64,000 nt of DNA from Planococcus sp. 107-1 (GTDB taxonomy: Bacteria > Bacillota > Bacilli > Bacillales_A > Planococcaceae), in the NCBI RefSeq assembly GCF_021513255.1, contig NZ_CP090977.1, forward strand, positions 2,356,001 through 2,420,000. Direction: 5' to 3'. Positions within the stretch are counted from its first letter, which is position 1. The number at the start of each line of letters is the position of its first letter. Shown piece after piece: positions 31,828 to 35,975 of this stretch. A program made the translations under genes and the position numbers. The notes below the pieces were generated by a model. It was given only the letters and a program-made list of their open reading frames with translations. It was not told the origin of the DNA and did not search any database.

Positions 31828-32431
31828 CTACTTGTATTTTTTATCGCTTGAGGAATGTTTTTCAGCGTCTGTCATTGATCCACGCTCTTTTTCAATTTCC
31901 GGCTTCTGTTGCGTACTGAAGGAAACATGGTGCGGTTCTTTCATTAAGGTTGGATCTTGCTGGAATGTTTCTCCTCTAGCAAACCGGTCTTCTTGCTCAT
32001 CAAAATTATTATCTACCGAATTTACGAATTCATTTGTCGAAGATTCTACCGGATTTCCTTCTCTGTCCTTAAAAGCGCTTCCTTCTATGACTTCTTCAAT
32101 TCCTTTACGCTCATCTGCATAAATCAGTATTCCACCATTAGCTAAGTCTGCTGTATACCGTTTCGTTTCTTCCTCGGAAAGATCCAAAGATTTCACACCA
32201 CCGCGTACACTGCCCTCACCTGTGATAAAGCCTTTGAACTTATCTTTAAAAGAACCAGCTTTTTGCACATCTATATCACTTCCATTCTCGATGTCGTCCA
32301 GGCGATCTGAATCCTGAGCAAGCAGATGAAGATCTTTTTCCCCATAACCATCCTTTTTAAGATCTTCGAGTTTTATGGATTAAATCTGTTTCAGAAAATA
32401 CAACCGCTAACACTTTTTTATCAGTAGCCAT
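31828..32431 (-). pseudogene. Second YflT-domain stress protein, frame broken by one extra base
   Basis: Translation starts at ATG 32431 after GGAGGTTTTGAGG and reads MATDKKVLAVVFSETDLIHK, then runs to a stop. The break is in the T run 32371-32374. With three Ts instead of four the frame continues as LEDLKKDGYGEKDLHLLAQDSD into the long downstream frame, giving a 200-residue protein. That protein has a YflT domain at residues about 5-100 and a hydrophilic C-terminal half. A homopolymer error is likely, although a real mutation cannot be excluded. A SigB-like promoter precedes it. Confidence 0.75.
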
Positions 32432-32473
32432 CCTCAAAACCTCCATCAATTATTTAATGTATTTGTTACTGCT

Positions 32474-32499
32474 TTCCCCTTACCATCAGCACCTTAAAC
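32474..32499 (-). promoter_or_regulatory. SigB-like promoter for the second YflT-domain gene
   Basis: On the minus strand GTTTAA, 14 bases, GGGGAA, ending 43 bases before the start codon. The -35 box is exact. The remaining 32500-32920 DNA is AT-rich and holds only the regulator's upstream region. Confidence 0.55.
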
Positions 32500-32739
32500 T
32501 AAGAGGAAGATTTTACAGGTATATCTTCACTGCAAAAGAAGTAAAAATTTTTAATTTTAATTTATGTAATGCGAAATTAATCATTTTAATATTTATTTAA
32601 TATGTTATTATAAAAGCCGAGAAAAAGTTTTTAGATATATTAACCATTTAATCCAATTAATAAATTTCTGCCTAGGTCATTCTTCCTTTTTATTTAATTT
32701 ACAAAAAATAGGCATTAAAAAGGCAGTATATTTTGAAAA

Positions 32740-32768
32740 TTGATGATATCATGGATTAAAGATATTAC
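32740..32768 (+). promoter_or_regulatory. Candidate promoter and operator of the RRNPP-type regulator
   Basis: TTGATG, 17 bases, TATTAC. A perfect 10-bp palindrome, ATGATATCAT (32743-32752), overlaps the -35 box and spacer, where the Xre-type regulator itself could bind. The assignment is tentative because the DNA is AT-rich. Confidence 0.35.
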
Positions 32769-32920
32769 ATTTTCGTACAATATAAGTTGTGGAGGCGGAA
32801 ACTATAGTACTTAACAATCTTTCTATGCATTACTTCCCGGAGCCAACGTCAAAGCTAGAAAGAAACTCTCCTACATGGATGCTTGAAGTTCTGCCCATTC
32901 AAACGGAAAGGAGAGAATCA

Positions 32921-34210
32921 ATGGACACTGGGTTGCGCCTGAAGTATCACCGATTAAAGAAAAAAATCAGCTTAGAGGAAGTTGCTTCCGGTATCCTCTC
33001 TCCTAGAGAACTTAAAAAAATAGAATCCGGTTTAAAAGAACCTTCTTTAGCTGACTTAGAAGCCTTGTGTAAAAAACTAGAAATCCCTCTGGCACCTAAA
33101 GACAATCCAGTGGGAAAAGTTTTAGTTAAAAACTTTAAGTCTTCATTAGTACATCCTCAGAACAAAGGAAAGATCATGGAGCAGTATTCCGATATTAAAG
33201 ATCATCCGCTGCTGCATGTGAATGAAGATATTGAGTTAGAATATAGCATTCAGCAAATTCGGTATTTCATTGTCATAGGTGATCTAGATACCGCAGAATT
33301 AAAATTAAAAGAGATGGAACGCTTTAAAGAATTCATGAATCAAGAGCAATTTTACCTCTTCCATAAATACAATGGAAATTATCATTATATTTTAAACGAT
33401 CATGAAACAGCTTTAAAAACTTACTTGATGGCTGAGAAAATTGCACCTTCTACTACCTCTCCTTCTGAGCTGGGAGATCTATACTATTCCATCGGTATTT
33501 CTTCTTCTCAATGTTGGGAAACTGAATTAGCCTTTAAATATACAGACTTAGCTTTAAAAATATATCAACAAGAATTTGTTCCAAAACGTATTGTAGAGTG
33601 TCATTTAAATATAGCAATGACACAACAACGTATAGGCAATTTTAAAATAGCTACAGAACATTTTAAAAACGCATTAACTATTGGCAGAAAACTTGAAATT
33701 GATATTTTGAGATTTACTACAGAATTTAATGTGGGTTATTCACATTTTTTATTTCAAAATTTCGAATCCAGTATTCATCATGTAACTGCGGCATTAGAAT
33801 TTGTTCCTGCTGAATATACTGCTGATATCTTATTAAGTTATTGCTTGATTATAAAATGTAATATTGAATTAAAAAACATTGAAGAAGCTGTTCGATGGCA
33901 AATTAAAGGAAAGAAGATTGTAGTTGAGAAGCATCTCAATCTCGACTTACCAACCAACCATGCTTTCAAAGAAGCTATTATGGAATTCTTCTGTCTATCA
34001 CATTATTTAAATAATGAGTACGATCAATTCGAATCCTTAGTAGTTAATACATTTTTGCCAAGTTTAAGCGTTAATGATAATTTTTACGAAATTGGTTATT
34101 ACTATGGATTATTGGGTAATCTATACTATAATCAAGAAAGGTACAAAGACTCGTCTTTTGCCTTTAATAATTCTCGTTTGGCTTACAAGAATCTTATTAC
34201 AATTAAATAG
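32921..34210 (+). CDS. HTH-TPR transcription regulator of the RRNPP (NprR/PlcR-like) type
   Basis: The 429-residue protein has an N-terminal Xre-type helix-turn-helix (residues about 4-55, LRLKYHRLKKKISLEEVASG then SPRELKKIESGLKEPS). An all-helical region of TPR repeats runs from about 75 to the end, with alternating small and aromatic positions such as YYSIGISSSQCWETELAFKY. The plan and length match NprR (about 420). RRNPP proteins bind imported peptide pheromones in the TPR groove. ATG 32921 has GAAAGGAG seven bases upstream; a GTG-initiated frame from 32789 lacks a proper ribosome site. The gene is clearly more AT-rich than its neighbours, suggesting transfer. A repeat-containing secreted precursor follows after 11 bases. 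Confidence 0.85.
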   Translation: MDTGLRLKYHRLKKKISLEEVASGILSPRELKKIESGLKEPSLADLEALCKKLEIPLAPKDNPVGKVLVKNFKSSLVHPQNKGKIMEQYSDIKDHPLLHVNEDIELEYSIQQIRYFIVIGDLDTAELKLKEMERFKEFMNQEQFYLFHKYNGNYHYILNDHETALKTYLMAEKIAPSTTSPSELGDLYYSIGISSSQCWETELAFKYTDLALKIYQQEFVPKRIVECHLNIAMTQQRIGNFKIATEHFKNALTIGRKLEIDILRFTTEFNVGYSHFLFQNFESSIHHVTAALEFVPAEYTADILLSYCLIIKCNIELKNIEEAVRWQIKGKKIVVEKHLNLDLPTNHAFKEAIMEFFCLSHYLNNEYDQFESLVVNTFLPSLSVNDNFYEIGYYYGLLGNLYYNQERYKDSSFAFNNSRLAYKNLITIK

Positions 34211-34221
34211 GAGTGAATTCA

Positions 34222-34611
34222 ATGAGGAAATTGTCTAAATTAATTTTGGCTACAACACTAGTTTTCACAAGTTTTTCAGCTACTTCCTTGATTAACCCAA
34301 ACGAAAACGATGTTGCTATGCAACATCGCGTTCCTGAGCCTTGGTCTGTTCACCAGAATTTTGCTATGCAGCATCGTGTCCCTGAACCTTGGTCTATTCG
34401 CAAGGATGTTGCTATGCAACATCGCGTTCCTGAACCTTGGTCTATTCGCAAAGATGTTGCTATGCAACACCGCGTTCCTGAACCTTGGTCTATTCGCAAA
34501 GATGTTGCTATGCAACACCGCGTTCCTGAACCTTGGTCTATTCGCAAGGATGTTGCTATGCAACACCGCGTTCCTGAACCTTGGTCCGTTAAAAACAAAT
34601 TCCAAGCTTAA
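34222..34611 (+). CDS. Secreted precursor with six tandem peptide repeats, candidate pheromone propeptide
   Basis: The 129-residue protein has a signal peptide (MRKLSKLILATTLVFTSFSA, about residues 1-20), a ten-residue spacer, and six 16-residue units. Each unit contains the invariant core AMQHRVPEPWS (starting at residues 32, 48, 64, 80, 96 and 112). Linkers are VHQNF, then IRKDV four times, and the tail VKNKFQA. The ribosome site TAGGAG overlaps the stop codon of the upstream HTH-TPR regulator and is eight bases before ATG 34222, so the two are cotranscribed. This is the position of NprX, PapR and Phr pheromone genes. Repetition and a shared export signal suggest that proteolysis releases several copies of one peptide. 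The mature ends are unknown. A small surface protein or RiPP precursor is an alternative, but no modifying enzyme is adjacent. Confidence 0.8.
   Translation: MRKLSKLILATTLVFTSFSATSLINPNENDVAMQHRVPEPWSVHQNFAMQHRVPEPWSIRKDVAMQHRVPEPWSIRKDVAMQHRVPEPWSIRKDVAMQHRVPEPWSIRKDVAMQHRVPEPWSVKNKFQA
34312..34599 (+). repeat. Six 48-bp tandem repeats inside the precursor gene
   Basis: Units start at 34312, 34360, 34408, 34456, 34504 and 34552. Units 3-5 are nearly identical; units 1, 2 and 6 differ mostly in the linker. Within the 33-base core there are six variable sites, all synonymous (CAA/CAG, CAT/CAC, CGC/CGT, GTT/GTC, GAA/GAG, TCT/TCC). Most units also contain GTTGC-TAT-GCAAC, an 8-9 bp dyad at units 1 and 3 that is lost in unit 2. 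Confidence 0.95.
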
Positions 34612-34626
34612 TCCTATGAATACGAA

Positions 34627-34659
34627 AAAGCAGCTGCCTAGTTTAAAGGCAGCTGCTTT
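34627..34659. terminator. Terminator after the repeat precursor
   Basis: A perfect 12-bp stem AAAGCAGCTGCC/GGCAGCTGCTTT followed by TTTTGC. It can also serve convergent pgi. Confidence 0.9.
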
Positions 34660-34667
34660 TTTGCTTT

Positions 34668-35975
34668 TTATTTCTCGTATCCTGGTTTCCCAAGAAGCTG
34701 GAACATGTTTTGTTTGTACTGCTCGACTCCAGGTTGGTCGAATGGGTTGACCCCTGAGAGGTAAGCGCTCATGGCACAAGCTTTCATGAAGAAATACAGT
34801 AAGTAGCCAGTATGATAGGTATCCAGTTTTGGAATTTCCAACTGCAGAATAGGCACGCCTCCGTCATGATGGGCCATAGCTGTAGCATTTAGCGCTTGCT
34901 GATTCACTTCATGCAACGTTTTATCCACAAGATAATTCAAGCCATCTCCATTTTCTTCATCGAACGGAATTTGGCTTTGCTGCTGGTCTTCCGTAAAACT
35001 GACCATGGTTTCAAATAACATGCGGCGACCGTTTTGCAAGTATTGGCCAAGCGAGTGCAAATCTGTTGAATAAATGACCGATGCCGGGAAAATCCCTTTG
35101 CCTTGTTTGCCTTCACTTTCACCAAATAATTGTTTCCACCATTCATTCATGCCTGCCATTGCAGGTTCGAAACTCGCCATTACTTCAGTCGAATAGCCGC
35201 GGGCATTCAATACTTGGCGATAAGCTGCATAAGAATAAGCTGCGTTCTCCTCTAAATTGGTGGAGATCAAATCCGCTTCCGCTTGTTTGGCACCGTTTAA
35301 CAACTCGCGGATATCTACGCCGGCCGCCGCCAATGGCAGCAAGCCTACTGGAGTTAACACAGAATAGCGTCCGCCGATGTTACCCGGAATCACGAATGAA
35401 ACGTATCCTGCTTCATCAGCTGTTTTGCGAAGCGCCCCAGCCGATTCATCCGTTGTAACAATAATGCGGCGGGCTGCTTCCTCTTTCCCATACGCTCCAT
35501 ACATCCACGCCTTAAGTTTCCGGAAAGCAATGGCTGGTTCTGTCGTTGTCCCTGACTTCGAGATAACATTTACAGCTACTTTTTTGCCTTCAACATAAGC
35601 AAGCAATTCTTCCAGGTATCTGCCGCTAATGTGCTGGCCTGCATACACAACTTCCAGTCCTTTACGGCCAAATGCTGGACTTAACAATTCCTGTACCGCT
35701 TTAGCGCCTAAATACGATCCGCCAATTCCGATAACAACTAGAACTTCAACATCTTCGCGCAATTTTGATGCCGTTTCTTCAATACGGGATATTTCTGCTT
35801 CATCCATAGTTGATGGCCAGTTCAGCCATCCAAGGTACTCAGCCCCAGCACCTGTACCTTCATGAATTTTTTTATGTGCGTTTTCAACGAAATCTTGTAA
35901 AGCCGTCAGTTCATCTTTTTCTACAAACGATTTAATGTATTTGTTATTTAAAGATATAGTTCCTATGGAAACCAC
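34668..35975 (-). CDS. pgi: Glucose-6-phosphate isomerase
   Basis: The protein has 435 residues. It carries the bacterial Pgi signatures IGIGGSYLGAKAV (about 80-92), SKSGTTTEPA for phosphate binding (about 140), the active-site region NIGGRYSVLTPVGLLP, and the C-terminal HTGYLLYFF. It interconverts glucose-6-P and fructose-6-P in the cytosol. The N-terminal start is unclear: the frame opens with GTG at 35975 directly against AAAAGGCGG, and no better in-frame ATG exists. The gene stands alone, convergent with the pheromone-like precursor. Confidence 0.94.
   Translation of the reverse strand: MVSIGTISLNNKYIKSFVEKDELTALQDFVENAHKKIHEGTGAGAEYLGWLNWPSTMDEAEISRIEETASKLREDVEVLVVIGIGGSYLGAKAVQELLSPAFGRKGLEVVYAGQHISGRYLEELLAYVEGKKVAVNVISKSGTTTEPAIAFRKLKAWMYGAYGKEEAARRIIVTTDESAGALRKTADEAGYVSFVIPGNIGGRYSVLTPVGLLPLAAAGVDIRELLNGAKQAEADLISTNLEENAAYSYAAYRQVLNARGYSTEVMASFEPAMAGMNEWWKQLFGESEGKQGKGIFPASVIYSTDLHSLGQYLQNGRRMLFETMVSFTEDQQQSQIPFDEENGDGLNYLVDKTLHEVNQQALNATAMAHHDGGVPILQLEIPKLDTYHTGYLLYFFMKACAMSAYLSGVNPFDQPGVEQYKQNMFQLLGKPGYEK

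Follow-up and report, generated by a model that had tools for sequence, protein, structure and literature searches.

The window analysed here, a stretch of 64,000 nucleotides from Planococcus sp. 107-1 (contig NZ_CP090977.1, positions 2,356,001 to 2,420,000; the genome is assembled as a single 3.51-Mb contig), carries two adjacent genes that probably form a self-contained RRNPP-type peptide quorum-sensing operon, found genus-wide in Planococcus. The first gene encodes a helix-turn-helix (HTH) regulator with tetratricopeptide repeats (TPR), and the second a secreted-type precursor with six copies of one short peptide. A preliminary description of this DNA had proposed such a pheromone pair; the receptor type, the linkage of the two genes, and the conservation of the peptide core speak for it, and we put its probability at about 0.86.

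Receptor and precursor genes

The regulator was described beforehand as an HTH-TPR protein of 429 residues, and the Pfam search agrees, with HTH_3 at E 4.3e-8 and TPR_2 at E 1.4e-9 (Table 1). Its size and its TPRs place it inside the criterion of 250-500 amino acids for RRNPP(A) receptors, and profile and fold searches match it to NprR/Rap profiles and folds. According to the text of PMC3601957, an Asn that anchors the peptide backbone (RapF N227) is conserved in RRNPP receptors. This residue aligns with N270 of the receptor, which is invariant in 23 of 23 and in 35 of 35 sequences. Profile matches, predicted fold, and anchor Asn all identify the HTH-TPR protein as RRNPP-type. A viral fold library returned generic TPR matches for the receptor, and AloR and QssR were not among the fold matches listed for it, which excludes nothing. 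A Spo0F-directed function in sporulation characterises the NprR subfamily; a Spo0A-type protein scores above the family cut-off in all 46 genus genomes.

The precursor ATG (34222) lies 11 bases behind the receptor stop, and the ribosome site of the precursor overlaps that stop, both as first reported. The open reading frame (ORF) as listed begins at an upstream GTG and gives 132 amino acids, against 129 from the ATG. The unit AMQHRVPEPWS occurs six times, once per 16 residues, and Tandem Repeats Finder (TRF) detects a single array at 34309-34586 (period 48, 5.8 copies, 92% matches, score 458), in agreement with the six units and 129 residues described before. The N-terminus starts with basic residues and contains a hydrophobic core, with a Kyte-Doolittle mean of 1.83 over 13 residues. 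A basic stretch and a hydrophobic core appear by hydropathy in 51 of 51 precursors, although these ORFs were partly chosen for a hydrophobic start. The precursor may be exported by Sec. Receptor and precursor look like a two-gene unit because a terminator-like hairpin follows them. This hairpin alone separates the array from the next large ORF (34668-35975, minus strand), which we take to encode glucose-6-phosphate isomerase.

Table 1. Coordinates of the receptor-precursor unit and its associated elements in the window
Feature	Position	Strand	Basis or remarks
Promoter-region element, genus consensus TAGGTANNNTTTACCTTTT; possible operator	32673..32691	+	Degenerate in own genome; alignment of 21/46 upstream regions
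Candidate operator or promoter element: conserved GAAAATTGATGATATCATGG with ATGATATCAT palindrome	32735..32754	+	Alignments
44-codon conserved leader in frame with receptor, GTG start here	32789..32920	+	Open in 44/44 genomes
CTCTCCT, complementary to receptor Shine-Dalgarno	32866..32872	+	Nucleotide-conserved; predicted pairing varies by genome
AGGAGAG, Shine-Dalgarno of receptor ATG	32909..32915	+	Sequence; conserved in relatives
RRNPP-type receptor, HTH + TPR	32921..34210	+	ATG 32921, TAG stop 34208-34210; 429 aa (473 aa if leader co-translated)
AGGAGTG, Shine-Dalgarno-like site of precursor gene	34209..34215	+	Sequence; overlaps receptor stop codon
Secreted-type putative pheromone precursor (129 aa) with six core copies	34222..34611	+	ORF, TRF, hydropathy
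Putative pheromone core copy 1, RVPEPWS	34327..34347	+	Translation; core limits from selection
Core copy 2	34375..34395	+	Translation; core limits from selection
Core copy 3	34423..34443	+	Translation; core limits from selection
Core copy 4	34471..34491	+	Translation; core limits from selection
Core copy 5	34519..34539	+	Translation; core limits from selection
Core copy 6	34567..34587	+	Translation; core limits from selection
Intrinsic terminator-like hairpin closing the two-gene unit	34623..34663	+	17 pairs, 8 G-C, T-rich tail; consensus match only

Selection on the core and turnover of copy number

Unit pairs within arrays, which are not independent of one another, were used to calculate the proportions of nonsynonymous (pN) and synonymous (pS) differences. 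Over 48 pooled arrays, the core has a pS of 0.219, a pN of 0.0058, and a ratio of 0.026, whereas the ratio in the spacers is 0.153. The comparison indicates that the heptapeptide core is under strong purifying selection: it shows no replacement difference in 40 of the 48 arrays, and seven of the other eight vary at the last residue only. In the genus as a whole, the core opens with R (90%) or K, while V or I predominates at position 2 and E at position 4. When units were located through either core or spacers, 303 of 310 had an intact core, six were altered, and one was masked by Ns, so the core conservation presumed in the preliminary description stands. In this spacer-based check, core residues 1-6 varied within one array only (L050). 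Selection acting on a short peptide that is released would leave a pattern of this kind.

Complete arrays, 40 in all, have a median of 7 copies (range 2-14), and their precursors are 71-255 amino acids long. Restricting the count to genomes assembled in one to three contigs still gives 4 (L004) to 14 copies (L018), and the spread is therefore not due to short-read collapse. Copy number differs in 29 of 32 pairs whose receptors are at least 90% identical. The nucleotide distance of the core is 0.056 within arrays, against 0.192 between arrays and 0.109 between arrays whose receptors are at least 90% identical; by this measure, the arrays are homogenised.

In the circuit that we propose, the precursor would leave the cell via Sec, and extracellular proteases would cleave both sides of each core, thereby releasing several copies of one peptide. 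An Opp permease would re-import the peptide, for which eight SBP_bac_5 matches in the genome represent possible importer genes. The peptide would then bind the concave TPR groove, with N270 holding its backbone, and the bound peptide would switch the DNA binding of the receptor. Gain or loss of 39-54-bp units would alter the peptide dose per transcript and leave the letters of the peptide unchanged.

Distribution among relatives

A receptor orthologue is present in 46 of 46 genus genomes (own included), the others being 58-98% identical. At E 1e-20, the receptor has matches in 54 of 261 family genomes, the 46 genus genomes included. The 36 named loci, all from Planococcus or Planomicrobium, comprise 31 orthologues and five paralogues, and the nearest named relative is P. 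ruber with a receptor 98% identical. At least one readable core occurs in the ORF immediately 3' of the receptor in 43 of the 46 genus genomes. In a further genome (L041), six cores are present with the frame disturbed near the start, which brings the genomes with cores adjoining the receptor to 44 of 46. The array of L028 is masked by Ns, and the contig of L045 ends inside the array.

With the precursor of the window as query, matches were obtained in 47 of the 261 family genomes. All genus matches lie directly 3' of the receptor or of a paralogue with about 30% identity, with one exception, a contig fragment carrying the remainder of an array split between two contigs. According to the preliminary description, repeat proteins standing without an adjacent regulator would have spoken against the pair; no genuine orphan was found among the 261 genomes. 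The query found no match in four of the 46 genus genomes because the arrays there are masked, truncated, or too dissimilar, and divergent orphan arrays could therefore escape it. Weak precursor matches in G208 and G168, from another genus, were considered as orphan arrays and rejected as translated short DNA repeats: they read as repeats in several frames, and those of G208 contain stops. Short DNA repeats of this kind, which mimic weak precursor matches, lie in L148 (~1987-2500) and L149 (~1820-2274), from two genomes of genus g17.

A second receptor, about 30% identical and with its own array, is found in five of the 46 genus genomes (L048-L051, G030:C33:168277-169959); the four arrays read have the cores HPNPWS or WPQPWS. 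Outside the genus, G062 has a receptor 48% identical followed by five IIPEPWS copies. In one genome of another genus (G116, locus L054; 33% identical), an open frame without the HTH part precedes six MYPPPWS copies, an arrangement that, by analogy, is reminiscent of Rap proteins, which lack an HTH. G061 (L053) has an interrupted receptor frame, and only two altered units, VPPPFV and VPPPFS, are left of its array, as if receptor and array had decayed together.

A short ORF of the secreted type is present in eight of 11 more distant relatives from the class, and the filter found none in three; six of the eight ORFs have no visible repeats, and two have three identical units. The latter two, at L157 and L158, are 51-amino-acid propeptides with three identical SEPDHPKIV units. 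The own genome also encodes another HTH-TPR protein, 24% identical (L002, G000:C1:873445-874152), followed by a secreted-type ORF of 52 amino acids ending in PLSAPHILPPL. This is a possible single-copy RRNPP pair, and most genus genomes have weak matches of this size.

A mobile origin was considered and rejected: phage records had no receptor relative at E 1e-6, and none was confirmed in viral contigs. Eight plasmid records had distant receptor relatives only, at less than 27% identity. The receptor-precursor system looks chromosomal.

The upstream leader and the start of the receptor

The receptor start at 32921 is provisional because the frame is open and conserved for 44 codons further upstream. 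In 44 genomes, the pN/pS of this leader is 0.62 in the receptor frame, compared with 0.94 and 0.95 in the other frames. Column shuffles, which ignore relatedness, produced a mean of 7.8 and a minimum of 2 stop-carrying sequences, whereas none was observed in 44. The pS of the leader is 0.38 against 0.76 in the HTH; as synonymous change is also reduced, a DNA or RNA constraint is likely too. The leader is also present in frame in L052 and L053, from two genomes of genus g5.

Synthesis mainly from the leader start, giving a receptor of 473 amino acids with the 429-residue form secondary or absent, is a serious alternative, although we consider it the less probable one; it bears on where the receptor begins and is no rival to the pair reading. 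The stop-free codons with coding-like substitution agree with it, as does NTG at codon 1 in 41 of the 44 genomes. However, codon 1 is ACG in three of the 44, residues 1-43 are predicted to be disordered (predicted local distance difference test, pLDDT, below 50), and a strong, conserved Shine-Dalgarno sequence serves the internal ATG. A Shine-Dalgarno-like GGAGG lies at the 5' end of the leader, and codon 6, eight bases past this site, is Ile (ATC, ATA, or ATT) in 44 of 44 genomes. A leaderless start was also considered: in 40 of 44 genomes, 11-13 bases separate the best -10-like hexamer from leader codon 1, but the mean matches at this distance are no better than at some other offsets.

At the nucleotide level, the conserved blocks of the leader are GTGGAGGCG, CTCTCCT, and AGGAGAG, the last two being complementary. 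Over 46 genomes, the receptor Shine-Dalgarno is predicted to be paired with a mean of 0.80, and the fold of the whole leader does not exceed that of shuffled sequences in stability (mean z -0.14). Rfam over 32400-34750 gave nothing near any family threshold. On these predictions, a role of the leader as an RNA switch is only a possibility. A broader idea, which we regard as rather unlikely, is that each of the two arms of the circuit has a dial at the sequence level: the array would be a mutable gain control, and the leader would set the amount or the N-terminal form of the receptor, its 5' GGAGG and its CTCTCCT able to pair with the receptor Shine-Dalgarno serving as the receptor dial.

Promoter elements and search for targets

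A regulon search by promoter motifs in the own genome and the 46 genus genomes found no target gene. At up to one mismatch, TAGGTANNNTTTACCTTTT has 31 sites in 29 of the 46 genomes, 28 of them at the receptor promoter; the own genome has no promoter site at this threshold, and its single match to the TAGGTA pattern lies elsewhere (C1:2511137). For GAAAATTGATGATATCATGG, the own genome contains the one exact copy of Table 1, plus three sites at three mismatches. Since the conserved elements lie at the receptor's own promoter and hardly elsewhere, that promoter may be a plausible first target, which is a weak inference.

Evidence against the pheromone reading and alternatives to it

Several results weigh against a peptide-sensing pair. 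The precursor of the window has no core copy at its C-terminus, so two cuts are needed per copy, and no cleavage motif common to all species was noticed in the precursors. RapF D194, which anchors the Phr arginine, aligns with the non-acidic R237 of the receptor. The invariance of PxPW or TEPW is partly built in, because the pattern that located the units demanded those letters. For the promoter element, a reversed control pattern gave 25 sites in the 46 genomes against 31 for TAGGTANNNTTTACCTTTT, and the number of sites outside the promoter, three, does not exceed chance. Finally, residue-level co-change between receptor and peptide is weak. Single columns reached z 6.6, but with at most five peptide changes and without multiple-test correction, and this signal was not used.

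The repeat protein could instead be a secreted effector, such as an antimicrobial or surface peptide, which the TPR regulator controls on another cue. We hold this to be improbable. Multi-copy arrays would raise the yield of an effector too, and the Pro-Trp-rich cores are unlike the Phr peptides named in the literature compared. However, the array is strictly adjacent to, and shares its distribution with, a receptor from a peptide-sensing family, the gene order is the same in the paralogue and in more distant relatives, and the next large ORF follows the array with nothing but the hairpin in between. A role of the repeats as one intact protein of the wall or matrix, or one that binds a ligand, conserved for its structure, is highly improbable: the unit length is fairly regular, with a modal period of 16 residues in 26 of the 42 genus arrays, but selection acts on seven residues, the spacers vary in sequence and in length (modal periods 13-18), and copy number shifts between close relatives.

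Comparison with known systems

The peptide-sensing pair resembles several known systems. The receptor shares the HTH and the NprR-type TPR fold with NprR-NprX of the Bacillus cereus group, with 18% identity over 349 aligned residues in the structural alignment with NprR (5dbk). NprR was not among the single-sequence search matches of the receptor up to E 1. To our knowledge, the core peptide is unrelated to NprX. The text of PMC10075063 counts a cluster as known at 30% or more identity over 80% to a reference receptor, and the Planococcus receptor falls below this rule relative to NprR. Repeated mature peptides are described in 17 of 17 large NprR-associated propeptides, with up to six copies (PMC9765709), and nprX duplications are mentioned in PMC5199041, whereas 2-14 copies occur here.

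Rap3T/Phr3T and Rap105/Phr105 have a similar TPR fold, and in the text of PMC11343458, their duplicated Phr propeptides experimentally yield several active pheromones via extracellular proteases. There, the Rap-Phr repetitions number 1-4, and the second Phr105 copy is C-terminal. Rap proteins lack an HTH, whereas the Planococcus receptor has HTH_3, which places it outside the Rap subfamily definition. AloR-AloP of Paenibacillus are likewise widespread pairs of an RRNPP-like receptor and a secreted peptide (PMC7425212), but belong to another genus, and a multi-copy precursor does not appear in the text compared. Yeast alpha-factor, whose secreted precursor contains the same peptide several times, is an unrelated eukaryotic system with other processing and another receptor, and serves as an analogy only.

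Literature searches found no RRNPP paper on Planococcus or Planococcaceae, and a search for the core letters returned unrelated papers only. The main texts of PMC11343458, PMC10075063, PMC9765709, and PMC12700828 do not name either taxon, although published supplementary tables may list these systems without naming them. The preliminary description was right to allow for multi-copy precursors already reported (PMC9765709, PMC11343458, PMC5199041). The novelty is therefore modest, given the published multi-copy RRNPP propeptides, including those of NprR. As far as searched, the new elements are the peptide family, the higher and fast-changing copy number, and the conserved in-frame leader.

Implications

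The candidates of RRNPP_detector are limited to propeptides of 10-100 amino acids in the text of PMC10075063, and a propeptide length of 50-120 is given in that of PMC11343458. The precursor of the window (129 amino acids) lies outside the RRNPP_detector range, and lengths above 100 amino acids were found for 33 of the 40 complete precursors; this range is a search filter and no mechanistic requirement. RRNPP censuses with a 100-residue limit may undercount this design because they would miss those 33. If the two-dial idea were true, sensitivity thresholds could shift between species with the chemical word unchanged. If the pheromone reading is true, Planococcus gains a genus-wide cell-cell signalling system. 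It would also offer a clean natural test of why precursors repeat a peptide, since the peptide is nearly constant and the copies, 2-14 in number, differ between near-identical receptors.
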